DNA from: Spirirestis rafaelensis WJT71-NPBG6
GTDB lineage: Bacteria; Cyanobacteriota; Cyanobacteriia; Cyanobacteriales; Nostocaceae
Assembly: GCA_019359015.1 (NCBI GenBank)
Contig: JAHHID010000052.1
Location: forward strand, 1-52,238
Direction: 5' to 3'
Length of the DNA stretch: 52,238 nt
Shown here: positions 32,484-48,261 of the stretch, piece by piece
Position numbering within the stretch: the first letter of the stretch is position 1
Layout of the letters: each line of letters begins with the position of its first letter
Notes under the pieces: model-generated
Databases searched by the model: none
What the model was told of the DNA's origin: nothing
What the model saw: only the letters and a program-made list of their open reading frames with translations
Position numbers and translations under genes: made by a program

Positions 32484-33470
32484 TCAGGTAAGAAAAACCT
32501 CTGTAAAACTGACATCACTTAAAGCAATTTTAACACTAAAACTTTCTCCAATTTCGCTACTAAAGTTTAATTGAATACTCTTTGTATTTCTTGCCGTTGC
32601 TTGCATCACGGAGATACCAGCTTCATCTAATACTGCCAGTTCGAGTTCTTCTGGTAAATAATTTTGACTACCAGTTGGGTACACTTTGATACCGACATTT
32701 ATTTCTTCACTAGAAGCTGGTATCAGTCCTACCACTAAGGCGATTGGTTGACTTTTTGAATCTCGTCCTAAGTCTAGTAGTTTGCCTTTCTGTACCCAAG
32801 ACGTTGAATCTTCTGGGTGAAGAGCTAAACTGTGTTCAGTCCCTCTAAATCTAAAAACGAGTTCTGTTTGTTGTTGCGGATTCAGAAGCGATTCTATAGT
32901 CTGCCAACCAGTATCGATAACATTCATGAACCACTGGCTCAAGTGAATTGGCTGTTGCACTTTTATGGCATCTTCATGCCACGCTTGGCTGTTGGTTAGT
33001 TGGTTCAGGTGTATGAGCAAATCTTCAAGGGAACTCAACTGGCTTAGATGTAACTCAAAAGAAGAAGGGACTGTTTTCATAAATCCCAATATTGTTGCTT
33101 CTTCAAGCGATGAGTCAAACTGTACAGCTAAGTAACCAATTCTATCTGAGCAAACTTCTGGTGGAACATAAATAACTTTCTGATTAGGTAACACCGGGAG
33201 ACACTCTATTTTCCCTAAACCAATAACTTCTAAATCAGCAATATCCATGAGAGTTTGTATGGCTGGGTGACAACTTAAACTTTCTGACCAAGAAGTTTGA
33301 ATTCCCATGCAACGCAGATAAAAATTTACAGCAAACACTGCCAAAGTGTTGAGATAAACCTGTTTAGCTTTCTGAGGGTTTCTCTGTTTTCTAAGAAACT
33401 GTTCTGCTAATGCGCGTGCTTCTAAGTTGAGCGGTACAGTAAAGGTTAAAGGTTCTGAGAAGTTTTTCAT
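32484..33470 (-). CDS. DUF1822 family protein
   Basis: This 328-residue cytoplasmic protein of a cyanobacterial family of unknown function is recognised from FTVPLNLEARALAEQF near the start, YLNTLAVFAVNFYLRCMGI, CLPVLPNQKVIYVPPEV and DRIGYLAVQFDSSLEEATILGF. The C-terminal part includes IALVVGLIPASSEEINVGIKV. DUF1822 genes commonly sit beside sigma-70-like and CHAT/CHASE2 genes. It lies 21 bases after the sigma gene, so co-transcription is likely. A regulatory role near the sigma factor is inference. Confidence 0.85.
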   Translation of the reverse strand: MKNFSEPLTFTVPLNLEARALAEQFLRKQRNPQKAKQVYLNTLAVFAVNFYLRCMGIQTSWSESLSCHPAIQTLMDIADLEVIGLGKIECLPVLPNQKVIYVPPEVCSDRIGYLAVQFDSSLEEATILGFMKTVPSSFELHLSQLSSLEDLLIHLNQLTNSQAWHEDAIKVQQPIHLSQWFMNVIDTGWQTIESLLNPQQQTELVFRFRGTEHSLALHPEDSTSWVQKGKLLDLGRDSKSQPIALVVGLIPASSEEINVGIKVYPTGSQNYLPEELELAVLDEAGISVMQATARNTKSIQLNFSSEIGESFSVKIALSDVSFTEVFLT

Positions 33471-33491
33471 AGTTTATTCACCACCTACTAC

Positions 33492-34133
33492 TTAATTTTC
33501 CTCGTTGCTACAGTATTCTTTTAACTTTGGAGATAGCTTTTTTATGCATCTGTAATAAAAGCTGCTAACTGTGGGAATTTTCATTCCAAATTCTGCTGAA
33601 ATCTCTTTCCATGATTTTCCAGACATTCGTCGCTTCACCAATGCTTGAAATGTTGCTTGAGGACATTTTTCTATGTGTTCATTCTTAAAAATGTCTTCCG
33701 GGTCTGATTCTATATATTTTTTAAGTATCTCTGTGAGGTCTTTTGGTTTTTCAGGTGAAGCAAAATTATCCAGATCAGCAATAGTCATTTTCATTCTGCG
33801 ATGATGAGTCTGGATTTTACGAATAGCGTCTTTAAAAAATCGTCGCTCCAATAGAACATTGACCCATACCATGACAGAGGCGCGTTCCGGTTCGTACTTG
33901 TCAATATTTTGACAAATATACAAGAAAAGTTCCTGACGTGCTTCGTTGTAAATATCTTCATAAACACCTGCGGGGAATTGATTTCTTTGTGGACGGCAAA
34001 GCTTGCCGGCGCGCACAATACCATTAACCAGCTTTGTTAAAGCAAGTTGCCGTTCCTGAGAACGCGGCGGGTGTCGCTGTGCCGAAATCGCTAGCTGTAG
34101 TAGATGTGAATCTAGTTCATCTCTTCTCGTCAT
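33492..34133 (-). CDS. Sigma-70-family-like factor (ECF/group 4-like)
   Basis: I choose ATG 34133 as start because GGAGTC lies seven bases upstream; a longer GTG-start version begins at 34190. The roughly 213-residue protein has a region-2-like helix set (YEDIYNEARQELFLYICQNIDKYEPERASVMVWVNVLLERRF). At the C-terminus SWKEISAEFGMKIPTVSSFYYRCIKKL is a region-4 type helix-turn-helix. It should direct RNA polymerase to a special promoter set. Gene order (sigma, DUF1822, CHAT-CHASE2, DUF928, small protein, tpsA2, tpsB, CHAT) suggests it drives this island. The gtaaagaaatg word in front of it recurs before tpsA1. Confidence 0.78.
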   Translation of the reverse strand: MTRRDELDSHLLQLAISAQRHPPRSQERQLALTKLVNGIVRAGKLCRPQRNQFPAGVYEDIYNEARQELFLYICQNIDKYEPERASVMVWVNVLLERRFFKDAIRKIQTHHRRMKMTIADLDNFASPEKPKDLTEILKKYIESDPEDIFKNEHIEKCPQATFQALVKRRMSGKSWKEISAEFGMKIPTVSSFYYRCIKKLSPKLKEYCSNEEN

Positions 34134-34190
34134 TTGAGACTCCAAACGTGATCTCTGGCGCGGAAGTGAATCTCTATTTCTCTCTCGCAC

Positions 34191-35035: not shown

Positions 35036-35950
35036 ATGGTTTTTGGCAACTGCATTTCAAAGCAACGCAATTCTCAAGTCACACTGCAGCTACAAGAGAA
35101 CTTGCAGTTTTCTGTCGAAGATGGGGTTTTTTGGGTGGATACAAACGCACGGTTTCTATTTATCAATGATGCGGCTTGTAGCTTAACTGGGTATTCCCGT
35201 GAGCAATTACTCTCGATGACTATGCACGACATATACCCTAACCTTTCAGCAAAAATTTGGGCAAAGTATTGGAGAACACTTAGGCAGCAAGGCTCTTTCA
35301 CCTTTGAATCTGTGTGTCGGACTCAGGAAAGTTGGAGCTTTCTGGTAGAAAACATTGTTATCTATCCTCTTCCTTATCTGGAACACGTTGGCAAGGAGTA
35401 TGGCTGTATTTTTGTTCGCAATATCAACAAAAGTAAGCAGTTAGATGTAAGCCTAAAGACATCGATTAAAGAGCTAGAATGCAGAGTCCAACAGCTGACT
35501 GCTGAATTGAAAGAAGCGAAAGAACAATCTTGCCGTGAGATTGTAGAAGCTCGCCAGACCTTGGAACAAGAAGCAGCCCCGCATTCGTTCTGGCCATCAA
35601 TTCCCCATCTGAATCAAGTCTTCGACTTCATCGAAGCCAATTATGGTCAACACATTACTGTGTACGATGTAGCCCAGGCAGTTGGTTACTCTACGGCTTA
35701 CTTAAGCAATCAGGTGAAATCTAAAACTGGACGGACTATACACAACTGGATTGTCGAGCGCCGGATGGCAGAAGCGCGAGCCTTGCTTCTAAAGACTGAC
35801 CAACCCGTGAATCAAATTGCTGCGGCAGTAGGCTATCCAGATCCAGGTCATTTTATCCGCCAGTTTCGCCAGCTCTATAGTGTACCTCCAAAAGAGTGGA
35901 GAAATATACATCGCTGCCAGTTCGGCATTCAGCAAGACGGAATAAATTAA
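35036..35950 (+). CDS. PAS-AraC transcriptional regulator of the lasso cluster
   Basis: The product has 304 residues. An N-terminal PAS domain (about residues 20-140: EDGVFWVDTNARFLFINDAACSLTGYSREQLL) is followed by a coiled-coil linker (about 145-185). The C-terminal AraC-type double helix-turn-helix has HITVYDVAQAVGYSTAYLSNQV and AEARALLLKTDQPVNQIAAAVGYPDPGHFIRQFRQL. The PAS domain may bind a small ligand or sense redox or light state. It is located directly upstream of the lasso-peptide genes, so the shared box before the exporter, cyclase and precursors is plausibly its binding site. That link is inference. Confidence 0.85.
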   Translation: MVFGNCISKQRNSQVTLQLQENLQFSVEDGVFWVDTNARFLFINDAACSLTGYSREQLLSMTMHDIYPNLSAKIWAKYWRTLRQQGSFTFESVCRTQESWSFLVENIVIYPLPYLEHVGKEYGCIFVRNINKSKQLDVSLKTSIKELECRVQQLTAELKEAKEQSCREIVEARQTLEQEAAPHSFWPSIPHLNQVFDFIEANYGQHITVYDVAQAVGYSTAYLSNQVKSKTGRTIHNWIVERRMAEARALLLKTDQPVNQIAAAVGYPDPGHFIRQFRQLYSVPPKEWRNIHRCQFGIQQDGIN

Positions 35951-36546
35951 GCTCAATGGCATACGAAGTATTGACGAGGCAGGGGTTTCACCACTGGCGA
36001 GAGTCCTATGGCTGACGCCACGGCTAAGCGCAGAGCGCACGCCAAGGGCGAACGCCTATCGGACACGCTGCGCGATCGCCCTGCTTCGGAAATCTCTGGC
36101 AGCATTGGTGTAATTTTTAACGTAGTTCCAGCCCGTCGCGCTACCCAAACTGACCCATTGTGGTTCTGACTTTTCACGTTATGTGGAAAAACCAACGCGA
36201 AACCTAACCCCCCAGCCCCCTTCCCTAAGAGGGAATGGGGAGAATTTAAAGCCTCTCAAAAAGCAGGAGAGAGGAATGGAAGCGAGGTTTTCCAGATAAG
36301 AGTGAAAAGTAAGATTGTGGTATTGTGGAGCGCTTAGCAAAGAAGTCCCGTCAATCCTGAGTAAAAGAATAAATGTCCTACTTTACAGCAAAATTTTCCA
36401 TTGAAATGAGGTGTGGGGGCACTTAAACTTAATGCTTTAGGGCATATAAATTTGTTGAACTAATCGATAGTCCATAGTTGTGTTGTTCTCTGGCTAGTTA
36501 GGTTGTTCCCGTTGCATATACATTAGGTTATTTCGCAACAACTCTT
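35951..36546. other. Intergenic region with dispersed repeats before lasso exporter
   Basis: A GC-rich cluster at about 36010-36090 (including gcgcgatcgccc) and a typical cyanobacterial noncoding repeat at about 36200-36295 (aacctaaccccccagccccc, hairpin cccttccctaagagggaatgggg-like, then gcctctc...gagaggaat) fill the middle. The last 160 bases are AT-rich and hold the shared lasso promoter element (36390-36435). No gene is seen. Confidence 0.5.
36390..36435 (+). promoter_or_regulatory. Shared lasso-regulon promoter element 1 (before exporter)
   Basis: The box aaaattttccattgaaatgag (core ttttccattga at 36394-36404) is followed 36 bases after its first base by taatgc (36430-36435). The same arrangement stands before the cyclase and before the precursor transcript. 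The ABC gene ATG follows 111 bases after the taat. It reads as an activator site plus a -10-like hexamer. Confidence 0.65.
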
Positions 36547-38370
36547 ATGTTTAAAGAAGTGCTGGACGTTGTAAGTAGCTACACAAAAACTTTCTGCCGT
36601 TCTCTACCATTTTTGTGGACAGCAGCACCAAGAGAAACAATCTTGATGATCGCTGGTGTGTTGTTGCAGGGAACTGTCCCCGCAATCAGCGTCTGGATTA
36701 CCAAGCAAGTGGTAGATGCAGTGGCAACAGCTTTAAACCAAGGGAAAGAAATTAGCTCTGTACTCCTCGCTAGCTTGGTAGCAGCATGGGTTGGGGCTTT
36801 GCTGCTAGAGGTTCTCCTGCGACCTTGGATGTCAGCAATTCAAGGAAATTTGGGCGAAAAGCTAACGGCTCACATTAACTTGCTTTTGATGCGTAAAGCT
36901 GACACTTTTCCCGACTTGAACCGTTTTGAAGACCAAAAGTTTTATGACGAGCTACGGATTCTCCAGGAACAAGTAAACTACCAGCCAATGAATTTTATTG
37001 GAAATTTGGCTCAGGGAGGCAGCAGTTTATTCACTTTGGTAACTATGGTAGTACTGCTGATTCCACTTGGGTTTTGGATTCCGTTTGTAATTATTATTAC
37101 AACCCTACCCCAAATTTATGTTTCCTTCCAGTATGAAATGATCATTTGGGGAGCCATGTATGAGAAAAGTCCAGAAGCTCGGCGGATGCAGTACTGCTCG
37201 TCAGTGATGCTTACTGACACCTACGCCAAGGAAGTGCGGTTGTTTAAGCTTGGTTCCTTGTTTATTAGTCGATATGTCAAAGAATTTCAGTCTTTGCATC
37301 AAACTATGCGCCATTTGCGGGGGAAACAAGCTTTTTGGGCAGCACGTTTGTCTGTGATGAGTGCTTTGGGGAATGGCTTTGCCTTTTATTGGGTGGTGCA
37401 GCAGGCTTTTAGAGGGGAAATTAGCCCAGGAAGTGTACTTCTTTTCGTGCAATCACTGGCTTACCTGCAACAGAATCTGGAACAGTGTATCAGTGTCTCC
37501 TTAACTACCTTTGAGACCCTGCTCTATATGCAGCAGTTTTTTGGTTTCCTACAGAGCCAACCAATAATGCCTGTGTGCATTCCTGGCAAACCAGTGCCTG
37601 TTCCCATTCGTTCGGGTATCACTTTTGACAAAGTGCACTTTTGCTATCCAGACAATCGGTCTGCTTTAGTAGACGTTTCCTTTACTCTGGAACCTGGTGA
37701 AACAGTAGCTTTGGTAGGGGAAAATGGGGCAGGCAAGACAACGCTAGTAAAACTGCTTACCCGATTATACGACCCTACAGAGGGAGCTATTTTGGTCGAT
37801 GGTGTAGACTTGAGGGAATTAGATTTGGATGCGTGGCGGCAAAATATAGCTGCGGTGTTTCAAGACTTTAGTCGCTATGCACTCACGCTGGGAGAGAACG
37901 TTGCTTTAGGAGACATTGCAGCACTGGATGACTCAGAACGCCTCAGACGTGCAGTCCAAAAAGCTGGTATAGCTGAACTGGTCGAAAAGTTTCCTCAGGG
38001 AGAGTTTACTCCTTTAGGTAAGCAGTTTGGCGGAACAGAACTTTCTGGAGGAGAGTGGCAAAAGTTAGCGATCGCCAGAGCCTTCATGCGAGAACAAGCC
38101 CAGTTACTCATCCTCGATGAACCAACAGCAGCCCTTGATCCCCGCAGCGAGTACGAAGTCTACCGCCGCTTTGTTGAACTAGCTCAAGGTAAGACTACGC
38201 TTCTGATTACCCACCGATTGGCTTCAGTAGGCATGGCTGACCGCATCTTGGTTCTGAAGTCCGGGCGGCTCATCGAAGAGGGTACCCACCAGGAACTTTT
38301 GCGACGCAGAGGAGAGTATGCCACGCTTTGGAATATGCAAGCTGAGCAATATGGTGTTCAAATAATTTGA
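36547..38370 (+). CDS. ABC exporter of lasso-peptide cluster (McjD/LarD-like)
   Basis: The product has 607 residues. The N-terminal about 340 residues form a six-helix membrane domain; the C-terminal ATP-binding domain has Walker A GENGAGKTT, Q-loop AVFQDFSRY, signature LSGGEWQKLAIARA and Walker B LLILDEPTAALD, followed by H-loop ITHRLASV. Exporters of this size and fusion type ship ribosomal peptides out of the cell and usually give self-immunity. It stands 5' of the cyclase gene with a shared promoter element ahead of each. No clear ribosome site is seen at the ATG. General lipid or multidrug export would be the alternative, but context favours the lasso peptide. Confidence 0.85.
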   Translation: MFKEVLDVVSSYTKTFCRSLPFLWTAAPRETILMIAGVLLQGTVPAISVWITKQVVDAVATALNQGKEISSVLLASLVAAWVGALLLEVLLRPWMSAIQGNLGEKLTAHINLLLMRKADTFPDLNRFEDQKFYDELRILQEQVNYQPMNFIGNLAQGGSSLFTLVTMVVLLIPLGFWIPFVIIITTLPQIYVSFQYEMIIWGAMYEKSPEARRMQYCSSVMLTDTYAKEVRLFKLGSLFISRYVKEFQSLHQTMRHLRGKQAFWAARLSVMSALGNGFAFYWVVQQAFRGEISPGSVLLFVQSLAYLQQNLEQCISVSLTTFETLLYMQQFFGFLQSQPIMPVCIPGKPVPVPIRSGITFDKVHFCYPDNRSALVDVSFTLEPGETVALVGENGAGKTTLVKLLTRLYDPTEGAILVDGVDLRELDLDAWRQNIAAVFQDFSRYALTLGENVALGDIAALDDSERLRRAVQKAGIAELVEKFPQGEFTPLGKQFGGTELSGGEWQKLAIARAFMREQAQLLILDEPTAALDPRSEYEVYRRFVELAQGKTTLLITHRLASVGMADRILVLKSGRLIEEGTHQELLRRRGEYATLWNMQAEQYGVQII

Positions 38371-38420
38371 CAGAGCCTTTTGGCATTGAGCAAAACCGAA
38401 GGAATATCCCATTTGAGCGA

Positions 38421-38472
38421 GAGATTTTCCATTGAGACTGAGTTTCGTACCCTTTAAATTTAATAGTGTGAT
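38421..38472 (+). promoter_or_regulatory. Shared lasso-regulon promoter element 2 (before cyclase)
   Basis: gagattttccattgagactg with core ttttccattga (38425-38435), then taatag at 38461-38466, exactly 36 bases after the core start. The downstream ...aatttaatagtgtg is almost identical to the precursor element. About 117 bases of leader remain to the cyclase ATG at 38583. Confidence 0.7.
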
Positions 38473-38582
38473 TAATGACTCCAATTGTAGATATCACTTC
38501 TGTTTGGCAAGAACTTTTTGCGTCCCAAGAAAATATTGTGCAACACGATTAATTCACTCAATTAGTAACAGCATAAAAAATT

Positions 38583-40481
38583 ATGAAACGTTGGTTTTGT
38601 GGCTTTTCATCAGCAATTGATAGTTCTCTGACAACCCTTCCTAAACCGCTTAATGGAGAAATGCTTTGGGAGGGAGCGAACCCTTTTTGGGTATGCGGAA
38701 ATTGGGGCAAACAGCAAATTATTACGCTCTTTGAAGGTCCTGTGCGGCTAGCTATTGTTGGTACTTGCTTAGAACCTTACGAAACTTTGGTTGAATTGTT
38801 CCAAAACGCTGTCAGAAATCACGACTACAGCAGACTAATGCGATTGCCTGGTAGCTATAACCTTATTGTACAAGACGAGGCTGACACTTATGTGTTTGTA
38901 GACGTAGCTGGTCTTAGACCTGCGTTTTATGCAGAATATGGCTCTTGTATTGTTTACTCCTCCTTAGGTGTCCCTTTACAACAATTGATCAAGGCAGAAG
39001 TAGATCCGTGCTGGATTGCTAATTATTTAACAGGACTTACAGCACCAAACTTAGTACAAAACCGCTCTCCTTTCCGCAATGTACAAGCTGTTCCATTTGG
39101 TCACTATTTACAAATAACCTCTGGGAAACCGACTTGTAAGCGGTATTGGAATGCACCACAGAAATACTGTAGCTTTTCTGAAGCGGCTGAACAGTTGCGT
39201 GAGCAGCTACTAACTGCTGTTGAAGGTAGAGTTCGCTTATACGGCAATGTAACCAGCGATTTGAGCGGTGGTTTTGATTCAACCAGTTTGGCTCTAATAG
39301 CAGCAAAGAGCTTTGCAAAGCAGGGTGAGAAGATTCATACAATAACCATTAAGGGCACTTCATCTACTGAATCTGAAGACGTTAAATGGGCGAAGCACGC
39401 AGCTAGTCTTTACCCAAACATTGAATCTGTGATGATTGAGAGTCACGAGTATCCTGCGGAGTTGAGTGACCTGGAGTCAATCCCTCTAACTGATGCACCA
39501 GATCCAGTCGTATTTTCTCTCGGTTTAATTAGCTACTCAATGGGAATTGTCAAGTCGAAAGGATCTCAACTTCATATGAGTGGAGAGGGTGGAGATCCCG
39601 TTCTTGCATCACATCCCTCATATTTAGCAGATTTACTAAAACGTAGACAGGTAGGAGTATTCCTCCAACACATTTATGGGTTGTGCCGAGTCAATAACTT
39701 GTCGCCACTAGATTTAATGAGTAGTGCTGCAAGACTAAGTTTCACTTCATATCGTCAGTGGTTACATCAACAAGCTAAAAAACTTTTGACTGGACAATCG
39801 CATCAGCCCCTTAGAAGCAAGCAGCCCATAAGTACAGTTATGGGATGGCATTATACTTTGAATCCTGCTACATGGTATACAAAAGGTTCCTTGGATTTAG
39901 TTGTCACAGAAGCTCAGAGGTGGGCAACAGTCGCAATTCCTTTAGCCAAATCTCCTGGAGAACATTGTTCTATAGATCTGATACAAGGGACTGGATTCAC
40001 CAGCCTAATTCAGCAGCAACTAGCTGAGACTTACGATGCCAATTTAGAATTTCCCTACTTTGATTCGTTGGTAATTGATGCCTGTTTTAGTGCAAAGCCA
40101 GAAGAGCGGACAACTCCATTTGCATATAAACCACTTCTCTCTAGAGCACTTGAGCACGATTTACCCAAAAGTATTTTTACACGGACTACCAAAGGTGATT
40201 ACACAGCAGGTGAATTTGTCGGACTCCAGCAAAATCTGCCGATCATCTATGAATTTTTTCAGACCTCTTTCTTAGCTGATCTGGGTCTGATTGATATCAG
40301 AGAATTTCATAATTACATGAAACAGCTTAGTATGGGACTGGCGACTGGTTCATTTCATTTCAATCAGACATTGACAGTTGAGCTTTGGTTACGCCGCATT
40401 GCAGATGCTAAGAACATTTTTTGGGAGCATTCAGCTTTCGCAAATGTACCGTCAGAGGGCAATTTACAGGCAGCATTGTAG
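38583..40481 (+). CDS. Lasso-peptide macrolactam synthetase (asparagine-synthetase-like, C protein)
   Basis: The product has 632 residues. The N-terminal about 180 residues resemble the glutaminase-type fold (SYNLIVQDEADTYVFVDVAGLRPAFYAEYGS) but begin MKRWFCGF, without the catalytic Cys directly after Met, so free glutamine hydrolysis is unlikely. The PP-loop SDLSGGFDSTSLALIAAK (about residue 220) binds ATP. In lasso biosynthesis C proteins adenylate the side-chain carboxyl of the ring Asp or Glu and join it to the new N-terminus. Neighbours B1, B2, exporter and the two precursors make this assignment firm; a plain asparagine synthetase is rejected. The gene has its own promoter element 2. 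Confidence 0.9.
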   Translation: MKRWFCGFSSAIDSSLTTLPKPLNGEMLWEGANPFWVCGNWGKQQIITLFEGPVRLAIVGTCLEPYETLVELFQNAVRNHDYSRLMRLPGSYNLIVQDEADTYVFVDVAGLRPAFYAEYGSCIVYSSLGVPLQQLIKAEVDPCWIANYLTGLTAPNLVQNRSPFRNVQAVPFGHYLQITSGKPTCKRYWNAPQKYCSFSEAAEQLREQLLTAVEGRVRLYGNVTSDLSGGFDSTSLALIAAKSFAKQGEKIHTITIKGTSSTESEDVKWAKHAASLYPNIESVMIESHEYPAELSDLESIPLTDAPDPVVFSLGLISYSMGIVKSKGSQLHMSGEGGDPVLASHPSYLADLLKRRQVGVFLQHIYGLCRVNNLSPLDLMSSAARLSFTSYRQWLHQQAKKLLTGQSHQPLRSKQPISTVMGWHYTLNPATWYTKGSLDLVVTEAQRWATVAIPLAKSPGEHCSIDLIQGTGFTSLIQQQLAETYDANLEFPYFDSLVIDACFSAKPEERTTPFAYKPLLSRALEHDLPKSIFTRTTKGDYTAGEFVGLQQNLPIIYEFFQTSFLADLGLIDIREFHNYMKQLSMGLATGSFHFNQTLTVELWLRRIADAKNIFWEHSAFANVPSEGNLQAAL

Positions 40482-40626
40482 TGGAAACAGATGACGAAAG
40501 CTCCCAAGGGCTAAATATCTAGAAGCTTGGAAGTGAGAATTGTCAAGCGCAACATCTTAGCTTCCATACATTAATGCGTTTTAATCCACCAAACTGACTT
40601 TTTAAAGAATAAAAGGAGAAAATTTC

Positions 40627-40896
40627 ATGGAAAAAATTTGCGTTCCATCACACGTTTCTACAACATTTTTTAAAGATACTGCTGTAATATTAGATGCACG
40701 AACAAACTCTTACCACGCATTAAATAATACTGGTGCCGATTTTTGGAAATCCTTCATGGAGAAGGGTTCGTTTGAAAGTGCGCTAAATGAAGTGTTGGAA
40801 TTGTATGACTATTCTTCAGATTTGATTAGAAAAGATATGGAAGAATTAGTTGACTCGCTTCTTCATGCCGGACTGCTTAAGAGGGTGCAAAGTTAA
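40627..40896 (+). CDS. Lasso B1 protein: PqqD-like RiPP recognition element
   Basis: The product has 89 residues, with a strong ribosome site (aaggag) eight bases before ATG. The sequence shows the PqqD-like pattern: VILDARTNSYHALNNTGADFWKSF and a C-terminal helix DMEELVDSLLHAGLLKRV. B1 proteins bind the leader peptide (through its Tyr-x-x-Pro motif) and present it to the B2 protease and the cyclase. The leaders of both precursors here carry YSKP, which fits. It sits between cyclase and B2, in the same direction. Confidence 0.9.
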   Translation: MEKICVPSHVSTTFFKDTAVILDARTNSYHALNNTGADFWKSFMEKGSFESALNEVLELYDYSSDLIRKDMEELVDSLLHAGLLKRVQS

Positions 40897-40978
40897 CTAT
40901 AAATTAATCGAAAAATACAATGTCATCCTAAGAAGATATTAGCAACCGACCTTTTCATTATCAAATTGGAGAAATATC

Positions 40979-41398
40979 ATGAACACTGAAATGACCCTAC
41001 AAAAAATTAGTTTTAAGCTTGGTTTGATAGAACGTTTGAAGGGTATATTTGCTGTAATCATTGCTTATATAGTTTTACGTTGGCTGTCACTTTCGACGAT
41101 TTGTAAAATTGTCGGTATAGCAAAGCGTCGCTGCTGGCGTGAAATAGAGGTTGAAGAAGCAGATATCGCGTGGGCAGCAGTGCGTCAATCTAGTTTTTTC
41201 TTTTTAGGAAGGGTAGCTTGCTTAGAATTATCGTTGGCATTTGTTCTTTTTGCTCTTACTAAAGGTCTATCGGCAACCTGCTGTGTAGGTGTGGCAAATG
41301 AACCATTTCGAGCTCATTCATGGGTCGAGCTTAATGGTAAATCTTTCCGTGAGTCCGAATACGTAGAACAGGTTTTCAATAAGCTGTTTACAATCTAA
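40979..41398 (+). CDS. Lasso B2 protein: transglutaminase-like leader peptidase
   Basis: The product has 139 residues with ggag before ATG. It has a hydrophobic N-terminal helix, then the McjB-type domain. The catalytic Cys is in GRVACLELSLAF and the His in FRAHSWVELNGKSF. The position 12 after the His, usually Asp (for example ...NDS in relatives), reads Glu here (RESEY). B2 cuts the leader after the residue following the conserved Thr. Split B1/B2 is the normal arrangement outside proteobacteria. The transcript appears to end at the hairpin 41434-41468. Confidence 0.88.
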   Translation: MNTEMTLQKISFKLGLIERLKGIFAVIIAYIVLRWLSLSTICKIVGIAKRRCWREIEVEEADIAWAAVRQSSFFFLGRVACLELSLAFVLFALTKGLSATCCVGVANEPFRAHSWVELNGKSFRESEYVEQVFNKLFTI

Positions 41399-41433
41399 TT
41401 TTATAAACAAATTAAAGATAATACCTACTACAT

Positions 41434-41468
41434 TATAAACCTAGTTTCTTAAAAAAATTAGGTTTATA
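41434..41468 (+). terminator. Hairpin downstream of B2
   Basis: tataaaccta (41434-41443) pairs perfectly with taggtttata (41459-41468) around a 15-base loop, and a T-rich stretch (aatattttgttttt) follows on the plus strand. It is 36 bases after the B2 stop and probably ends the lasso biosynthetic transcript. Confidence 0.55.
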
Positions 41469-41570
41469 AATATTTTGTTTTTGAAATTTATCTACATGAG
41501 AGCAAGTGTAAGAAAAATGTGGTTTCTTAATATGATAATAGCTGCATAACACTTTTTTTTATTGCTAAAT

Positions 41571-41606
41571 AATAAAAAAATGAGCTATTGATTGATTCAA
41601 TAGCTC
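41571..41606 (-). terminator. Intrinsic terminator of the lasso precursor transcript
   Basis: gagctattga (41582-41591) and tcaatagctc (41597-41606) form a perfect 10-bp stem with a 5-base loop. On the minus strand it is followed by A and a run of seven T (complement of 41574-41580). It lies 41 bases after the stop of the second leftward precursor gene and faces the right way to end it. Confidence 0.8.
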
Positions 41607-41646
41607 AAATTATACTGTTAGATTATCCTAATCAAAAAAATCTAAA

Positions 41647-41772
41647 TTAGAACAAAACTCTACGTCTATTGAACAATACTTCGCGAGATCGCCAACCAAT
41701 CCCCAATGTTATCTTAATCGCATCATCCACCTCTATCATTTGAGGTTTAGAGTATTGTTTCTTAGTGATCAT
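41647..41772 (-). CDS. Lasso-peptide precursor A1 (core GIGWRSREVLFNRRRVLF)
   Basis: The product has 41 residues, with a good ribosome site (aggagagag) before ATG 41772. The leader of 23 residues contains YSKP (residues 7-10), acidic VDD and the conserved Thr at -2 (ITL, cleavage expected after Leu23). The 18-residue core starts with Gly1 and has Glu8, giving an eight-membered G1-E8 macrolactam, with tail VLFNRRRVLF. The tail LFNR..R motif is shared with the second precursor. Too short for standard gene prediction, it fits every rule for B1 binding, B2 cutting and C cyclisation, and lies beside those genes. Strongly cationic with five Arg. Confirming the product needs mass spectrometry. Confidence 0.9.
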   Translation of the reverse strand: MITKKQYSKPQMIEVDDAIKITLGIGWRSREVLFNRRRVLF

Positions 41773-41806
41773 TTTCTCTCTCCTAGTTACTGGTAGTCTT
41801 GAGTAA

Positions 41807-41853
41807 ACTTTAATCATAGGCTGATGAATGAATCAACAGTCTATGATTAAAGT
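41807..41853 (-). other. Strong hairpin between the two precursor genes
   Basis: actttaatcatag (41807-41819) and ctatgattaaagt (41841-41853) are perfect 13-base inverted repeats, and the stem extends inward by ctg/cag with one G-T pair. No T-run follows on the minus strand, so it is not a classical terminator. It could stabilise or cleave the transcript and set the ratio of the two precursors. Confidence 0.7.
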
Positions 41854-41883
41854 GCTACGTTCTCCAAATTAAAATTATTTAAA

Positions 41884-42009
41884 TTAGAAGAAAATTCTAC
41901 CTCTATTGAAAAGTATTTCACGCTGATTCGGAACTCTGAACGCCAATGTCTCTTTAATGACGTCACCTACTTGAAGTAATTGTGGTTTAGAGTATTGTTT
42001 TTTAGTCAT
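41884..42009 (-). CDS. Lasso-peptide precursor A2 (core AFRVPNQREILFNRGRIFF)
   Basis: The product has 41 residues with ggag before ATG 42009. The leader of 22 residues begins MTKKQYSKPQL, nearly identical to A1, and has Thr at -2 (ETL). The 19-residue core starts with Ala1 and has Glu9, predicting a nine-membered A1-E9 ring and the tail ILFNRGRIFF. Ala at position 1 is unusual but known among lasso peptides. Compared with A1, leader and tail are conserved while the ring sequence differs, a pattern of duplication and diversification. It is the first gene after the shared promoter element 3. Confidence 0.9.
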   Translation of the reverse strand: MTKKQYSKPQLLQVGDVIKETLAFRVPNQREILFNRGRIFF

Positions 42010-42063
42010 GTCTTGATTCTCCAAAAGATTTACGTTTGTTTGTAGTTGAATTTATCAACCACA

Positions 42064-42110
42064 CTATTAATGTAAGAGGTAATCCACTCAATCTCAATGG
42101 AAAATCTTGC
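42064..42110 (-). promoter_or_regulatory. Shared lasso-regulon promoter element 3 (before precursors)
   Basis: On the minus strand: aagattttccattgagattg with core ttttccattga (42104 to 42094), then taatagtgtg beginning at 42069, 35 bases after the core start. Both words match element 2 before the cyclase almost exactly. The A2 start codon is about 60 bases downstream of the TAAT. Confidence 0.7.
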
Positions 42111-42240
42111 GGTAGGATAGGATATTTCTTTGGTCTTAATGAGTAGTTTTGAAACTGATTATAAGTACTCTGAAAAAATTAATTAGATATAGTTGGACAG
42201 CGCTACAAGCTGACAATAACGTGAGTTCGACGATACTTAG

Positions 42241-42948
42241 TTAAGCCGCAGTTACACGTCCCAACTCCTCTGGAGCAAGATAGGGATGAACCACCTGCCC
42301 ATCTTTAAACCAGATGACGCGATGGGTACAACAGGCAACCTCTGATTCATGAGTGACCATCACCACCGTCATACCACTAGCATTTAACTGAGTGAAAATA
42401 TTGAGGATTTCCTTTGTAGTACGAGAGTCTAATGCGCCAGTGGGTTCATCTGCAAGCAGGAGAACTGGATTATTGACAATAGCACGAGCGATCGCCACTC
42501 GTTGTTGCTGTCCACCCGATAGCTGATTGGGTTTATTGTGCAAACGTTTTTCCAGTCCCACTCGCATCAACGCCTCAGTTGCCCAATCTCGCCGTTCGTC
42601 TAGAGGAATGCCGGCATATACCATCGGTAGCATGACATTCTCCAAAGCAGTCAACTGGGGTAACAGATGAAACTGTTGAAAGACAAAACCTAGTTTCAAA
42701 TTACGGATATGTGCCAAATCTTTGTCACCCAGATGGGCAACATTCACTCCATCTAAATAGTAGCTTCCAGAAGAGGGGTGATCTAAGCAGCCAATGACGT
42801 TCATCATGGTGGACTTACCCGATCCAGAAGCTCCCATAATGGCACAGTATTCTCCTGCTTCTACAGTCAAATTCACACCAGCAAGAGCATGAACTGTGGT
42901 TTCTCCATAACCATAAACTTTTGTAATGTTTTTTAACTGAATGCTCAT
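42241..42948 (-). CDS. ABC transporter ATP-binding subunit (MacB/DevA/LolD-like)
   Basis: The product has 235 residues. Walker [11 protein letters not shown]-loop FVFQQFHLL, signature [14 protein letters not shown], Walker [13 protein letters not shown] and H-loop VTHE are all present. It lies two bases from the permease gene and is in the same leftward unit. Such ATPases power tripartite export of peptides, glycolipids or drugs. An intergenic gap of 231 bases separates it from the lasso precursor transcript. It could add a second route or immunity for the peptides, but the pair is more likely a stand-alone efflux system. Confidence 0.9.
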
Positions 42949-42950
42949 GG

Positions 42951-44156
42951 TTATGCACCTCTCAACGCAGCGATAGGATCAAGTCGAGCAGCTTGTCGCG
43001 CCGGTGCAACGCCGAAAATTAAACCAATGCTACCGGAAACGCCTGCTGCTAAGATAATTGCCCCCACGGGTACTGTCGGTTTCAAAGGGGTGAGGATACC
43101 AACAACGAGTGCACCACTGACGCCAATGCCTGTGCCAATTAAGCCCCCTGCTACTGAGAGGATAATTGCCTCAATCAAAAACTGGGTGAGGATTGCCTGT
43201 TGAGTTGCTCCTATTGCCTTCCGTAGTCCAATTTCTTGTGTACGCTCTGTTACAGACACTAACATGATGTTCATGATGCCAATACCACCAACCAGTAAGG
43301 AAATACCCGCTATTGCTGCTAAGACGAAACTCAGCGTCCCTGTCACCTGATTTACAAGATCCTGAACCGACTTGTTCGCGGCAACTGTAAAGTTTTTCTT
43401 GCCATGTCTGCGCGTGAGAATGTTGGTGGTTTGGAAAGCTGCTGCCCGGACGCTAGCTTTGTCCTTGGCAGAAAGTTCTAGATAGTCAATGGGAATGCCA
43501 TTGGGCGATCGCCTTCCTGCTAACTGACCTGCCATAGTAGTAATAGGGACGTAGGCTATCTCATCGGGATTATTACCCATAAAAGCACCTTTGGCTTGCA
43601 TCACCCCAACCACTTGAAAACTCAAGTTATTCATCTGCACTGACTGACCAAGAGGATTTTCGCTACCAAAGAGTTTGCGTGCGACTGCTGGTCCTAAGAT
43701 GACAACTTGGGCATTTTGCTGTTGCTCAATGGAGTCAAAAAAGCGCCCCTGGCGAACACGTAGGTTTCGCACATAAAGAATTCCCGATGTTGTACCTGTT
43801 ACATTTACTTTACTTATGCGTCCCTGACGGGATAATTGCAGGTTGCTACTCATCTGCGGGGCGACTTCCTGGACGGCAGGTGCCTGCGTTGCGATCGCCT
43901 CAGCATCTGCCAAAACCAGTTGTGCAACCTCAGTGTTCACTCCCTCCGCATTCTCGCCACCAGGAAAAACAGAGAGTTGATTTGGTCCAAAGGACTCCAG
44001 CTTTTGCTGAGTAAACTGCTGTGCGCCTTGCCCGATAGCAACCATCGCAATCACGGAGGCATTGCCAATGATAATACCGAGCATGGTGAGTGTACTACGG
44101 AGTTTGTTGGCAGTCAGCGTTTTAACTGCCATATTTGTACTTTCAAGTAGGTTCAT
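42951..44156 (-). CDS. MacB-like ABC permease
   Basis: The product has 401 residues, with an N-terminal membrane helix (KLRSTLTMLGIIIGNASVIAMVAIG), a periplasmic domain of about 200 residues, and three C-terminal membrane helices (about 275-395) with the FtsX-type pattern GGIGIMNIMLVSVTERTQEIGLRKAIGAT. The TM-less version of the MacB permease (ATPase separate) is the DevC/MacB type. It works with the ATPase encoded two bases downstream and with the membrane-fusion protein gene 230 bases upstream. Confidence 0.88.
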   Translation of the reverse strand: MNLLESTNMAVKTLTANKLRSTLTMLGIIIGNASVIAMVAIGQGAQQFTQQKLESFGPNQLSVFPGGENAEGVNTEVAQLVLADAEAIATQAPAVQEVAPQMSSNLQLSRQGRISKVNVTGTTSGILYVRNLRVRQGRFFDSIEQQQNAQVVILGPAVARKLFGSENPLGQSVQMNNLSFQVVGVMQAKGAFMGNNPDEIAYVPITTMAGQLAGRRSPNGIPIDYLELSAKDKASVRAAAFQTTNILTRRHGKKNFTVAANKSVQDLVNQVTGTLSFVLAAIAGISLLVGGIGIMNIMLVSVTERTQEIGLRKAIGATQQAILTQFLIEAIILSVAGGLIGTGIGVSGALVVGILTPLKPTVPVGAIILAAGVSGSIGLIFGVAPARQAARLDPIAALRGA

Positions 44157-44243
44157 GGTTTTGGTTTATAGGGATTCTTACATCTTGCACTTGGTAAAAC
44201 AAATGTCACAGTAGTTACATATTATTTGACTCCGTTCTCGTCA

Positions 44244-44292
44244 CGGGACTGTAAGTCCCGCCGCTTATAGCCTAAGTCCATTAAAATGGACT
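44244..44292. repeat. Two adjacent hairpins (cgggact and agtccatt stems)
   Basis: cgggact-gta-agtcccg (44244-44260) and agtccatt-aa-aatggact (44275-44292) are two perfect small hairpins side by side in the gap between the permease and membrane-fusion genes. Such tandem hairpins are common dispersed repeats in cyanobacteria. They could also stabilise or attenuate the exporter transcript. Confidence 0.55.
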
Positions 44293-44386
44293 GAAACTGG
44301 AACTGATTTAGGAGTATATTTAAACACTATTTCATGCAAATGTTAGTGGTTTACTCGTAATGGTGCATATCAGGATTGAAACAAAA

Positions 44387-45727
44387 CTAAAATCCAACAG
44401 TATCTACGCCCTCAATTTTTTCGTTGCTTGGAGGAGATATAAACACGCGATCGCCCTTTTTCAAACCTTCTAACACTTGAACTTGGTCACCACTGGCTGC
44501 GCTCACCTTAATTGGTTGGAAGCGTGTTTTAGTTTTTTCATCAGCAACATACACCCCTGTTTGACCATTAGGCTGAGTCACAACCGCAGCCAGGGGAATA
44601 ACTAAAGCATTCTTAATTGGCTCACCCAGGAACGTTAGTCTTACATTCATCCCTGACTTAAGCTTTGCTTGCCCCGTAGAGAGCGCCACTTTGACCCGAA
44701 AGGAAGTAATATTGTTTTCTTGCACAGCCCTAGGTGCAATTAGGCTAACCTGTCCCTTAAAAGTTTCGTTAGAATAGGTGTCTGTTTGAATATTTACGCT
44801 CTGATCTGGATGAATTTTAGAAATGGTGGCTTCAGGAATTTTGGCTTCAATTTCTAAGCCACTGGAGAGTTCAGCAATGGAGGTGGATGTTGCTCCTTCA
44901 TTGGAGGAGGCTGATGTGGTAGGTGTGACGAAATCTCCCTCTTGAGCAAAGCGGCGGGTGATGATGCCTGCAAAAGGCGCACGAATAACCGTATTGTTGA
45001 ATTGGCTTTGATAAAAGGCAAGTTGAGCTTTTGCCTGAGCCACTTCGGCTTGTGCTTGAGCAATTTCCTCAGGGCGCAGTCCGTTGTGGGCTTTGTTTAA
45101 AGCCTCTCGCTGTTCTTTGAGTCGCGCTAGCTCTGCTTCCAAATTTGCCTTAGCTTCCCGTTGTTTAGCAATAAACTCTCCAAAGGCGTTCCGGGAAATT
45201 GCACCCTCTTGAGCTGGCATTTGATTGCGTTTGAGTTCTTCTGTTGCACGGTTTAACCTTGCTTGGGCTGCTGCTACAGATGCTGAGGCAGAAGCAACTC
45301 TGGCTTTTGCCTCAGCAATTTCTTCGAGACGAGTTCCAGCACGCTTTAGTTCTAAGTCAGCCACAGCTTTTTCCAGTGATGCTAGATACTGATTGACCTG
45401 CGCCTGGACTTTCTCGCTACTCATACGGGCAATGATTTGTCCTTTGGCAACGCGATCGCCCTCGCTTACGTATAATTTGGCAATGCGTCCAGAATCTTCT
45501 GGACTTAGGTTAATTTTTCGCACAGCCTGCACCACCCCATTGGCTTGGATTTGCACCACCCAATCTTTGGTTTGTACCAATACAGTCTGGTTAGTTAAGT
45601 TTTGCTCAGAGGAAGTGTCTTCAGTCTGCAGGTAAATTGTTGTGGTGGTTCCTAAAGCTCCGATTATCAGGATTCCGAAAATCCAAGGATTTAGCTTCTT
45701 CACCCGACTCAACGGTAAAATTTGCAT
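44387..45727 (-). CDS. HlyD-like membrane-fusion protein (MacA/DevB type)
   Basis: The product has 446 residues. A membrane anchor near the N-terminus (PWIFGILIIGALGTTTTIYL) is followed by a lipoyl-like domain (LSPEDSGRIAKLYVSEGDRVAKGQIIARM) and a long alpha-hairpin with coiled coil. The second lipoyl half (NTVIRAPFAGIITRRFAQEGDFV) and the beta-barrel C-terminus follow. It would join the inner-membrane MacB-type transporter to an outer-membrane channel. It is the first gene of the leftward exporter set, divergent from the two-component system genes, whose regulator might control it. Confidence 0.88.
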   Translation of the reverse strand: MQILPLSRVKKLNPWIFGILIIGALGTTTTIYLQTEDTSSEQNLTNQTVLVQTKDWVVQIQANGVVQAVRKINLSPEDSGRIAKLYVSEGDRVAKGQIIARMSSEKVQAQVNQYLASLEKAVADLELKRAGTRLEEIAEAKARVASASASVAAAQARLNRATEELKRNQMPAQEGAISRNAFGEFIAKQREAKANLEAELARLKEQREALNKAHNGLRPEEIAQAQAEVAQAKAQLAFYQSQFNNTVIRAPFAGIITRRFAQEGDFVTPTTSASSNEGATSTSIAELSSGLEIEAKIPEATISKIHPDQSVNIQTDTYSNETFKGQVSLIAPRAVQENNITSFRVKVALSTGQAKLKSGMNVRLTFLGEPIKNALVIPLAAVVTQPNGQTGVYVADEKTKTRFQPIKVSAASGDQVQVLEGLKKGDRVFISPPSNEKIEGVDTVGF

Positions 45728-45939: not shown

Positions 45940-47250
45940 GTGAGAACCTTTTGTGAAGCCGCCAACACCGTGAACCGTCTTCTGCAACTTAAAACCCATC
46001 CTTTTCGTTTACTGCTCTACTTGGAATGGATTTTGTTGATAATTACAGTTCTGGGTGAGCTACCGTGGGAAGACATTCCCTACCTAGAAAGGCTGCTGGG
46101 AGAGTCTTCTAATACACCAAAACTGCTGCCGTACTCTTGGCTGCTAAATATACTTTGCATTGTAGGTTTCGGGTTAATGGGGTTGCGGTTGCCACAGGGT
46201 ACAACCGTGAGCAAATGGCTTTACACTGCACTGGAATTGGGAATAATCTGGCTCGTAACTGCCCTGGGAAGCTGGCGTATATCTTTTCTGTCTCCTTATC
46301 TAATTGTCGTCATCCGCAGTTGCCTAATTTTTAAACCAACGGGACGACTGTTAGCTACTGGATTGGTCTTTATCTCTTTCTTGCTATCACTGGTAATTTC
46401 GGTAAAGGATATTCCAGCGATTCAACAAGAACTGACACAACCCAAACCTGCAACGCTCAACGAAATCAGGATTTGGTTTATTATTAGTAGTATCAACACA
46501 GCATTTTTGTTTGGATTGGTATTAGTGTTCGTGTTGATGCTGGTGAATGCATTGCTGGCAGAACGCCAAAGTCGGCAAAAACTGACACTTGCCCACGACC
46601 AGCTACGCCAATATGCCTTACGGATAGAAGACCAGGCGACCTTACAAGAGCGTAACCGAATTGCCCGCGAAATTCATGATTCCTTAGGTCATGCAATGAC
46701 GGCTCAAAGTATTCAGTTAGAAAATGCGTTGTTATTTTGTCACTCCAACCCAGATAAAACCGAAGCATTTTTGACCGAAGCCAAGCAATTGGTAGCAACA
46801 GCTCTCAAAGAAATTCGTCAATCAGTCTCTAGGCTGCGGTCTGACTCATTGCAAGGGAAAACTCTAGAAGCAGCCCTCGCCATCCTCATAGAAGACTTTC
46901 GCAAAAGGACAAACATCTCTCCAGACTGCACAATCAGCCTGACCTATCCGATGTCGGCTGAAGTAAAGACTGCTATCTATCGCATTGTTCAAGAAGCCTT
47001 AACGAATATCTGCAAACACAGTGATGCAACACAAGTTACCCTTCAGTTGCAAACGATACATAGACACTTACATCTGCTGATTGAAGATAATGGTAGAGGC
47101 TTCAACCTAGAACAAAACACAACAGGTTTTGGACTTCAGGGAATGCAAGAAAGAACGGTAGCCCTAGGAGGTCATTTCAAGCTAGCAAGTGAAATAGGAA
47201 AGGGTTGCCGTATCACTGTTGATATTCCACTTGTGAAATTTCTGCCATGA
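45940..47250 (+). CDS. Sensor histidine kinase (NarL/LiaS type, HisKA_3)
   Basis: The product has 436 residues with a GTG start. Five to six hydrophobic helices cover residues about 22-205, followed by the dimerisation and phosphorylation helix with RNRIAREIHDSLGHAMTAQS. The ATPase has NICKHSDATQVTL, IEDNGRGFN and GFGLQGMQERT. This type autophosphorylates the His and passes the phosphate to a LuxR-type regulator, here the next gene, which overlaps by 4 bases. Its signal may be a membrane or envelope stress, consistent with a divergent exporter. Confidence 0.9.
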   Translation: MRTFCEAANTVNRLLQLKTHPFRLLLYLEWILLIITVLGELPWEDIPYLERLLGESSNTPKLLPYSWLLNILCIVGFGLMGLRLPQGTTVSKWLYTALELGIIWLVTALGSWRISFLSPYLIVVIRSCLIFKPTGRLLATGLVFISFLLSLVISVKDIPAIQQELTQPKPATLNEIRIWFIISSINTAFLFGLVLVFVLMLVNALLAERQSRQKLTLAHDQLRQYALRIEDQATLQERNRIAREIHDSLGHAMTAQSIQLENALLFCHSNPDKTEAFLTEAKQLVATALKEIRQSVSRLRSDSLQGKTLEAALAILIEDFRKRTNISPDCTISLTYPMSAEVKTAIYRIVQEALTNICKHSDATQVTLQLQTIHRHLHLLIEDNGRGFNLEQNTTGFGLQGMQERTVALGGHFKLASEIGKGCRITVDIPLVKFLP

Positions 47251-47921
47251 TTCGCTTGTTGCTAGTAGACGACCAAATTATCATTCGCCAAGGACTCAAG
47301 AGCTTACTAGAGTCAAAGCCAGACCTACAGGTCGTTGGAGATGCCGAAAATGGTCAACTGGCACTGGATCTGCTTGAGTCCCTACAGGGAACACCGCTAC
47401 AACCGGATGTGGTGTTGCTGGATGTGCGGATGCCCGTGATGGATGGTGTAGCAGCGACTCAGCAAATTTACCAACGCTTTCCGGAAACACAGGTTCTGAT
47501 TTTGACCACCTTTGATGACGATGAATACGTTTCGCAGGCAATGCGCTTTGGGGCGAAGGGGTACTTACTCAAAGATACTCCGTCAGAGGACTTAGCGATG
47601 GCTATTCGGGCAGTTTACCAAGGTTACACCTATCTTGGACCCGGACTGTTTGAAAAAGCACTTCCACACCAAAGCACCGCTGAGCCAGTTAAGCCAGCCC
47701 CAGCCATTCCTCCTGAATTAGCGGATCTATCGCCTAGGGAGTGGGAGGTATTGCGGTTAATTGCTTCTGGAGCGAGCAATCGTGAAATTGCACAGGCACT
47801 TTACATCTCAGAAAGAACTGTAAAAAATCATGTTACCAGTATTTTGAGTAGGTTAGGTTTACGTGATCGCACCCAAGCAGCGCTTTTTGCCAGTTCGTTC
47901 CTTGCCCTGCTGGATGATTAG
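47247..47921 (+). CDS. NarL/LuxR-family response regulator
   Basis: The product has 224 residues. The receiver domain starts IRLLLVDDQIIIRQGL with the phosphoacceptor Asp in VVLLDVRMPVMDG, and ends near ILTTFDDDEYV...GAKGYLLKD. The C-terminal LuxR helix-turn-helix is LSPREWEVLRLIASGASNREIAQALYISERTVKNHV. It overlaps the kinase by 4 bases. The divergent exporter genes (MacAB-like) are the most likely target. Confidence 0.92.
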   Translation: MIRLLLVDDQIIIRQGLKSLLESKPDLQVVGDAENGQLALDLLESLQGTPLQPDVVLLDVRMPVMDGVAATQQIYQRFPETQVLILTTFDDDEYVSQAMRFGAKGYLLKDTPSEDLAMAIRAVYQGYTYLGPGLFEKALPHQSTAEPVKPAPAIPPELADLSPREWEVLRLIASGASNREIAQALYISERTVKNHVTSILSRLGLRDRTQAALFASSFLALLDD

Positions 47922-48261
47922 CGGGACTTTATAAACCTATTTCTCTACTTGGACGTATTGACAGAATTCACTCGCTTTTAACTTGTTACCAATGCATCAA
48001 ATACAACCGTTACCTTCAAGTTCATATAAACCTCTGGATAACCACAGAAGAGTTGCCTTATACCGAGAGATTTTCTAGATTCTTTATTCTAGAATGAACC
48101 TGACCCAACCGAGTGCCATGAGCGCGACGGTTGGAGTATCTGTAAAATACGAGGAATATTGCGTTCATTAACTTTTGTACAAAAGTTCAATTGTATTTAT
48201 CTAGTAAAGTACAAATATAGATTAGATTTTTTATGTTTATCTAAGTTTGTGCTTTACTACA
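47922..48261. promoter_or_regulatory. Region upstream of parA with operator-like palindromes
   Basis: The gap of 340 bases carries the parA promoter. The perfect 18-bp palindrome is listed separately. Repeated agtaaagtac and ctttactac words lie within 70 bases of the start codon. Further upstream ttctagattctttattctagaat forms an inverted repeat. No gene was found. Confidence 0.5.
48170..48187. promoter_or_regulatory. 18-bp perfect palindrome upstream of parA
   Basis: aacttttgtacaaaagtt is exactly self-complementary. It lies 75 bases before the parA ATG, and the partly related words agtaaagtacaaa and tgctttactacaa follow. A probable autoregulatory operator or centromere half-site for the partition proteins. 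Confidence 0.7.

Follow-up and report, generated by a model that had tools for sequence, protein, structure and literature searches.

We analysed a stretch of 52,238 nucleotides from the cyanobacterium Spirirestis rafaelensis WJT71-NPBG6 (GenBank assembly GCA_019359015.1, contig JAHHID010000052.1, positions 1 to 52,238; hereafter the window). With a probability that we put at about 0.83, it contains an island for two cationic lasso peptides that is controlled by one AraC-type switch and carries an exchanged cassette of the cyclase gene C, the genes B1 and B2, and the precursor genes A. A preliminary description of this DNA, made from its letters alone, had reported a complete lasso-peptide cluster at 36390-42110. 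The genes do lie there; the extent was drawn too narrowly, as the conserved island spans about 35.0-48.0 kb. The shared operator, the PAS-AraC regulator, the MacAB-like pump, the two-component system and the mosaic origin, all treated below, did not figure in that description.

Lasso enzymes and two short precursors

Four genes on the plus strand form the core of the cluster, in the places and with the functions given by the preliminary description, and Pfam and NCBIfam models agree on them. An MsbA-like ATP-binding cassette (ABC) exporter of 607 residues (36547-38370; Pfam ABC_tran, 120.7 bits) is followed by the asparagine-synthetase-like lasso cyclase C of 632 residues (38583-40481). C matches Asn_synthase and lies above the cut-off of macrolact_Ik_Al NF033561 (340.7 bits; cut-off 300) and below that of the isopeptide-bond-forming cyclase model NF033535 (96.2 versus 525). 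Its loop S228-T234, SGGFDST, is conserved in 14 of 14 aligned cyclases, without an F/other change. B1 (40627-40896, 89 residues) is a PqqD-like leader-recognition protein, that is, a ribosomally synthesized and post-translationally modified peptide (RiPP) recognition element (RRE); it scores 45.1 bits against PqqD (cut-off 23.4) and stays under the cut-off of two lasso-specific NCBIfam B1 models (49.8 versus 70 and 22.8 versus 80). The AlphaFold model of B1 has a mean predicted local distance difference test (pLDDT) score of 91.8 and shows three helices and four strands plus a short strand at the end, a predicted fold close to what we take to be the RRE pattern. B2 (40979-41398, 139 residues) is a transglutaminase-like leader peptidase, matched by Transglut_core3 and by lasso_biosyn_B2 NF033537 (69.3 bits; cut-off 33), in which Cys81 and His113 are invariant in an alignment of 15 sequences. 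No acetyltransferase was found among the window proteins scanned by family models.

The two precursor genes lie on the minus strand, convergent with the enzyme genes, in the order operator, A1 (41884-42009), stem-loop, A2 (41647-41772) and intrinsic terminator. As the preliminary description had claimed, each encodes 41 residues, and the YSKP leader, the Thr at position -2 and the Glu at core positions 8 and 9 can be read directly from the translations. The leaders follow the pattern Y(-17)SKP(-14)...T(-2)L(-1), with L in A1 and M in A2 at position -12, and GGAG precedes the ATG of both genes. The predicted core of A1 is AFRVPNQREILFNRGRIFF, with a ring between Ala1 and Glu9, and that of A2 is GIGWRSREVLFNRRRVLF, with a ring between Gly1 and Glu8; these glutamates are the sole acids of the two cores. 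For core minus water we calculated neutral monoisotopic masses of 2361.297 Da (A1) and 2242.271 Da (A2). By hand count, the predicted net charges after ring closure are about +3 and about +4, in keeping with the cationic products proposed in the preliminary description. The window holds the sequence features by which lasso clusters are recognised: a C cyclase, a PqqD/RRE-type B1, a cysteine protease B2, the leader motif and a core acid at positions 7-9.

The minus-strand terminator at 41581-41607, after A2, consists of an 11-pair stem and a T run (1 found, 0.1 expected in shuffled sequences). The stem-loop between the two genes (41807-41853, minus strand), recovered by self-comparison of the window, is long and AT-rich and has no T run; it may adjust the relative amounts of A1 and A2. 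A cluster with a single precursor was ruled out, as A1 and A2 each have a start signal and relatives.

No NCBIfam precursor model reached its cut-off on A1 or A2: lasso_cyano NF033528 gave 15.7 bits on A1 (cut-off 33) and no match on A2, and neither peptide was listed by the albusnodin precursor model NF033525 (cut-off 30 bits) at E up to 1. Model-based annotation would for this reason miss both genes.

Relatives were collected from 217 genomes of the family (G denotes a genome and L a locus; G000 is the window's own genome). A cyclase search returned 16 places in 10 genomes, window included, and a scan of named genomes added a 17th cluster, L021 of Microseira wollei. Precursors are present in all 17 clusters and intact in 16, the L035 precursor being broken by an in-frame stop. 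That the small frames be conserved together with B1, B2 and C had been set beforehand as the test by which the precursor assignment could be refuted, and this distribution upholds the assignment. The 16 clusters hold 24 intact precursors. Twenty-two of them, including the window's own two, came from a leader-only search of 17 sources (the window, L021 and L027-L041), with query leaders taken from the window precursors and from a first, acid-requiring scan; the other two are in G023, where the precursors lie on a second contig together with the pump and the kinase half. Weak matches in L034 (plus strand), L039 (minus strand) and L041 were not counted.

Tyr, Pro, Thr(-2), Leu(-1) and one core Arg are invariant in 18 aligned precursors, and the four leader residues likewise in the rest of the 24. 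The first core acid of the 21 distinct intact cores is D9 in 10, E9 in 6, D8 in 3 and E8 in 2, a count that rests on the leader-only search and the two G023 copies because the first scan had required an acid at position 8 or 9. One core of L030, a locus with a second Thr near the cleavage site, was mis-parsed with the acid at position 6 and was counted by eye as position 9. An Arg directly precedes the ring acid in 21 of 21 cores, and the ring acid is the only acid in 20, the exception being L034 with two later Asp residues. Residue 1 is Gly in nine cores, Ala in five, Arg in three, and His, Leu, Ser and Trp in one each.

A model built from the 18 precursors matched 11 of the 217 genomes, namely the 10 cyclase genomes and G031, where the match is weaker (E = 0.002), has a different core and adjoins a distant lasso-type cyclase. 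The co-occurrence with the cyclase (all 10 cyclase genomes and only 1 of the other 207; Fisher p = 2e-16) is partly built in, because the model was made from such loci; its informative part is the absence from 206 of the 207 other genomes. Among existing models, lasso_leader_L3 was just passed by two of eight relatives scanned (19.3 and 19.6 versus 19), and NF033525 matched seven of 18 group members at E up to 0.1, those scored staying below the cut-off.

These data bear on the alternative that the enzymes are real while the small frames are not their substrates and the true precursor lies elsewhere. Short frames do occur by chance, and the NCBIfam precursor models stay under cut-off on A1 and A2. 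Against this stand the leader conserved in every cluster, the co-occurrence with the cyclase, the operator, start signal and terminator in place around the two genes, and the comparison of A1 with its L027 homologue, whose nonsynonymous and synonymous divergences (dN 0.07, dS 1.2) indicate that A1 is under purifying selection. Leader conservation and the distribution of the precursor model ruled out chance frames, and we give the alternative as a whole only a very small chance. The products might also be cyclised head to side chain and remain unthreaded, with short, Arg-rich tails. Threading is unreadable from sequence, and only 6-7 residues follow the ring in some relatives (L021, G023); in A1 and A2, by contrast, 10 residues follow it, among them Phe, Arg and Leu as possible plugs, and the enzymes are of the lasso type. 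Unthreaded products appear unlikely.

In a class-wide search for the cyclase in 388 drawn genomes at E <= 1e-80, the window's own genome was the sole match. A search of plasmid records gave only actinobacterial ones, to which C is 24.6-29.6% identical among the 20 listed of 28.

Several of the related clusters are irregular. L029 (6661-8983) has C and a precursor, and L035 (5489-7863) has C and the stop-interrupted precursor; B1 and B2 were found in neither, and B1 was not found in the second L032 cluster (10737-13567). These three may use B proteins supplied in trans, or may be in decay. The B1 gene of L027 (9030-9296) has an in-frame stop in its middle. The window's own genome contains a second lasso cluster (G000:C10; L041, 4223-7827) with C, B2 and B1 and two longer precursor-like frames, beginning MKKQYSTP and MKLMKQTYSTP, with cores unlike those of A1 and A2.

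A shared candidate operator and its putative regulator

Self-comparison of the window revealed a stretch of 45-95 bp that recurs, each time in the sense of the gene that follows, before the exporter (36367-36411, plus strand; exact 29-mer 36376-36404), before C (38391-38484, plus strand; 38407-38435) and before A1-A2 (42046-42138, minus strand; 42094-42122). Its core, TCCYAY-N12-TTTTCCATTGA, contains two TCC half-sites 21 bp apart, a direct repeat that overlaps the -35 box. The -35 box, TTGA, comes from the CATTGA end. In 13 of 14 copies, which are related to one another, 17 bp separate it from a TANNNT hexamer downstream. The distance from the GATTTTCC box to the start codon is nearly fixed: -97 wherever a precursor lies immediately behind a copy (four cases), -154 to -156 in four of four exporters, and -159 to -167 in four of four C genes.

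The 7.07-Mb genome contains three exact matches to the pattern, all in the cluster, no one-mismatch copies and six copies with two mismatches, and these counts ruled out background occurrence of the pattern; at up to three mismatches the count equals that of a reversed-pattern control (92 each). Across the 217 genomes we counted 17 exact matches against two for the reversed control. Twelve of the 17 belong to four lasso loci (G000, G023, G090, G127). A further one, in G180, stands after a 92% identical exporter gene that is cut by the contig end, with no cyclase following; G116, G117, G061 and G125 have one each, G125 with only a weak ABC match and G061 with no related gene nearby. Both G023 precursors have one-mismatch copies. 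A survey limited to 47 upstream stretches from part of the genes and loci did not show the 29-base pattern in 33 of them (L021, L027, L028, L029, L032, L034 and L036-L040); among these 33 are stretches before genes of pumps and regulators and before one L030 precursor.

Could the element be a dispersed repeat or a recombination site rather than an operator? The C-to-A cassette, which appears to have been exchanged, is flanked on either side by about 90 bp of it in inverted orientation, and in G023 a third one-mismatch copy lies between pump and precursors in the opposite orientation. The remainder of the window's own genome, however, has no exact or one-mismatch copy; the copies before genes keep the promoter orientation and a near-fixed distance to the start codon; the half-sites, 21 bp apart, are joined to a -35/-10 pair that overlaps the element; and the breakpoints described below fall within C and at the A1 start, outside the element. 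We consider a repeat or recombination site rather improbable.

AraC/XylS class II operators have tandem direct half-sites 21 bp apart, the proximal one overlapping the -35 box. The sequence features of this class are all found here, that is, direct half-sites at this distance, a proximal site overlapping the -35 box and a regulator gene nearby; the likeness is one of layout, and the regulator of the window, unlike those of the class, has a PAS domain. This PAS-AraC family protein (35036-35950, plus strand; Pfam HTH_18 85.4 bits, PAS_9 38.6 bits) is, judging from its sequence and position, the likely activator of the cluster. Its gene is likewise adjacent in L031, at 88% identity, and no PAS-AraC neighbour was found in the examined loci that lack the 29-base pattern. 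When the DNA-binding half was searched in 15 genomes, the best four matches (100, 94, 91 and 64%) were those of the four genomes with both operator and cluster, followed by G116 (60%) and G117 (58%). Compared with L031, the window has extra DNA between regulator and exporter at 36168-36314.

Similar sites occur elsewhere. In the four related loci L036, L037, L038 and L040 a ATATTTTGCATTGAG-like box, 3-4 mismatches from the GATTTTCCATTGAGA of the operator, is situated at an almost constant distance of about 360 bases before the precursor, and a weak match to the 15-base box (3-4 mismatches) is present at -374 in L029, in all five cases without the 29-base pattern; the box is perhaps a related site of another regulator. 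In G116 and G117 an exact operator copy with a -35/-10 region (L061 7972, L062 8023) precedes a gene for a transporter like those of the major facilitator superfamily (MFS), which in L061 sits after two large genes that look polyketide-like by eye. In these two genomes a switch of this kind may control a different pathway.

Mosaic structure, pump genes and the proposed pathway

The exporter and the cyclase of the window have different closest relatives. The exporter is 94-96% identical to those of L030, L031 and L033 (95% to L030) and 78% to that of L027, whereas C is 61-66% identical to the cyclases of L030, L031 and L033 (66% to L030) and 84% to that of L027. Along 38371-41398, 725 informative sites favour L030 by 118:16 to the left of position 38904 and L027 by 456:135 to its right. 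On the A1 side, the balance is 108:12 for L030 above position 42003 and 28:7 for L027 below it. The protein trees conflict in the same manner, each split with a support of 100: the cyclase tree separates the window, L027, L028 and L029 from the other nine, and the exporter tree separates the window, L030, L031 and L033 from the other seven. These trees comprised 13 cyclases and 11 exporters; L035, L037, L039 and the second L032 cyclase were left out, and L021 and L029 entered the cyclase tree only. From identities, site flips and conflicting trees together, it follows that an enzyme-and-precursor cassette was probably exchanged. The best-fit, approximate breakpoints place it at 38904-42003, comprising most of C, B1, B2, A2 and A1, with one junction probably early in C and the other where A1 begins; the cassette would derive from one lineage and the exporter/regulator frame probably from another.

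Unequal evolutionary rates could imitate such a mosaic, as an exporter might evolve more slowly than C. Against this, the order of identities reverses between the two comparisons (C versus exporter, 84 versus 78% against L027 and 66 versus 95% against L030), and the informative sites flip at both breakpoints. Rate differences are a very unlikely explanation.

Upstream of A1 and on the same strand lie the genes of a MacAB-like pump (42241-45727): a MacB-type ATPase (42241-42948) and a MacB/FtsX-type permease (42951-44156), both identified by family models and found with related clusters, and a MacA-like membrane-fusion (periplasmic adaptor) protein (44387-45727; TIGR01730, 178.6 bits, cut-off 94.9). 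Beyond them, on the plus strand, a family scan identified a histidine kinase (HisKA_3; 45940-47250) and a LuxR/NarL-type response regulator (47247-47921), in a stretch conserved in relatives. Pump and two-component system accompany the closest clusters. Counting L031 and L103 as one stretch and the two L032 clusters as one, a membrane-fusion protein with an FtsX-type permease occurs in 12 of 16 stretches, six of the close type and six of a type 21-31% identical, as a raw count; the pair was not found in L021, L029, L032 and L035. The pump genes may be mere neighbours of the cluster. They may serve in export to the outside or in self-protection.

The genes, the precursor family, the ring-acid pattern, the distribution of the operator and the mosaic structure were computed here, and from them we infer the chemistry, export, activation and product role as follows. 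B1 would bind the YSKP leader and B2 would cut after T(-2)-L(-1). C would then activate Glu9 of A1 or Glu8 of A2 and join it to the new N-terminus, yielding rings of nine and eight residues. The MsbA-like exporter would carry the lassos across the inner membrane. Outer-membrane exit or self-protection would be provided by the MacAB-like pump, which the adjacent two-component system perhaps controls. The PAS-AraC protein would bind the operator, a tandem 21-bp direct repeat with its proximal half over the -35 box at each of three promoters, so that the three units (exporter; C-B1-B2; A1-A2) would be turned on together by class II activation. Homologous recombination would have brought C-B1-B2-A into an exporter/regulator frame that was there before, so that the products changed while switch and export were kept. 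The product role is most likely growth inhibition of competing microbes.

Several observations weigh against this interpretation. The cluster is known here from DNA alone, and its products are predicted. The structure model of B2 is poor (mean pLDDT 63), and sequence searches of solved structures with B1, B2 and C gave no match. The L028 precursor copies differ by no silent and six other changes (dN 0.05, dS 0.04), and selection is not visible in them because they differ in changed codons only. Agreement of the -10 hexamers with the consensus is limited to 3-5 of 6 positions. The PAS-AraC gene and the cluster are on different contigs in G127, the likeness to the regulator is confined to the DNA-binding half in G090, and stops were flagged in both regulator matches (one TAA; two TAG). 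The operator copies of G116 and G117 precede an MFS gene in genomes without a full-length relative of the regulator. Finally, the search for the operator gave none ahead of the MacAB-like operon, and MacAB-like genes are common in general.

A broader proposal is that the conserved sensing-and-export frame, consisting of PAS-AraC regulator, three operators, exporter, pump and kinase/regulator pair, acts as a socket for whole sets of enzyme and precursor genes from an arginine-rich lasso group with R-[D/E] ring closure, exchanged by homologous recombination. We hold this to be slightly favoured by the data; if true, strains would switch their product and keep switch and export.

Comparison with known systems and the island edge

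Lasso clusters with split B1 and B2 proteins are known, with fusilassin-type examples. According to PMC10368454, lasso precursors carry a YxxPxL leader motif with Y(-17), P(-14), a hydrophobic residue at -12 and T(-2), and a ring acid at positions 7-9. With such split clusters, as outlined there, the window shares A, a PqqD-like B1, a transglutaminase-like B2, C, the leader motif and the position of the ring acid. It differs in that the ring acid always follows an Arg in its group, that the cores are strongly basic and that residue 1 in relatives can also be Arg, His, Trp or Leu, and in that the window has its precursors on the opposite strand and three units behind one operator. A cluster of Roseofilum, from black-band-disease cyanobacteria, comprises a 98-residue RRE, a 135-residue B2, a 633-residue C and ABC-transporter genes on each side, as far as the consulted part of PMC9967302 describes it. 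Gene sizes and layout are close to those of the window, a likeness drawn from that description only; the main text of the paper does not contain the term 'precursor peptide', and no operator figures in its account there. The window C passes the model of albusnodin/ikarugamycin-family cyclases (NF033561), whereas the relatives' precursors stay under the albusnodin cut-off. The Cyanocohniella LLY cluster, as described in PMC9332814, has a cleaved product of 36 residues; that system is cyanobacterial too, and the A1 leader matches lasso_cyano weakly, whereas the predicted products of the window have 18-19 residues. As in darobactin DarBCD/MacAB-type export, an adaptor, an FtsX permease and an ATPase lie beside a RiPP cluster; unlike DarBCD, the window pump is far under the DarB, DarC and DarD cut-offs and is accompanied by an MsbA-like exporter and a kinase/regulator pair.

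The kind of cluster is thus already known, and the Arg-rich precursor group is unusual. The preliminary description had held the products to be new; for the cluster kind this did not stand, and for the precursors it did in so far as the group, like the operator and the exchange, was not found in the literature searched, which excludes the RODEO precursor tables, where such peptides could be listed. The accessible portions of PMC11392904 and PMC8600333 give no precursor sequence, the main texts of PMC13352647 and PMC8498205 contain no word beginning 'cyanobacter', and no searched paper joined lasso peptide, AraC family, cyanobacteria and promoter.

The operator, with one regulator, three promoters and a single 29-bp site type, would offer a handle for activating a possibly silent cluster. 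The cassette would be a natural case of a product changed with regulation and export intact, useful for pathway engineering, and its exchange would help to explain the origin of RiPP variety. The Arg that invariably precedes the ring acid offers a testable clue to substrate recognition by this cyclase group, and members starting with Arg, His or Trp test which residues a lasso cyclase accepts at position 1.

The right edge of the island appears to lie near 47.9-48.0 kb. The kinase/regulator stretch is 95% identical in G023, 94% in G127 and 80% in G090, with the match breaking off between 47.92 and 47.99 kb; in the four other genomes of the genus only parts of it match, at 64-67%. The edge is drawn there because one of these four, G078, matches this stretch only partly and keeps the next genes (48.1-49.6 kb) at 83%. 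At the island end, a stretch of 40-50 bp (47949-47995), single in the window's own genome, is repeated in G023, G127 and G180 and also seen in G078, G080 and G090. Outside the island, a DUF1822 gene adjoins a gene whose sigma-70 region 4-like match narrowly misses the cut-off (32484-34190), and a transposase fragment and a phage-type integrase lie at the right end of the contig (50153-51671), 2-4 kb past the island.

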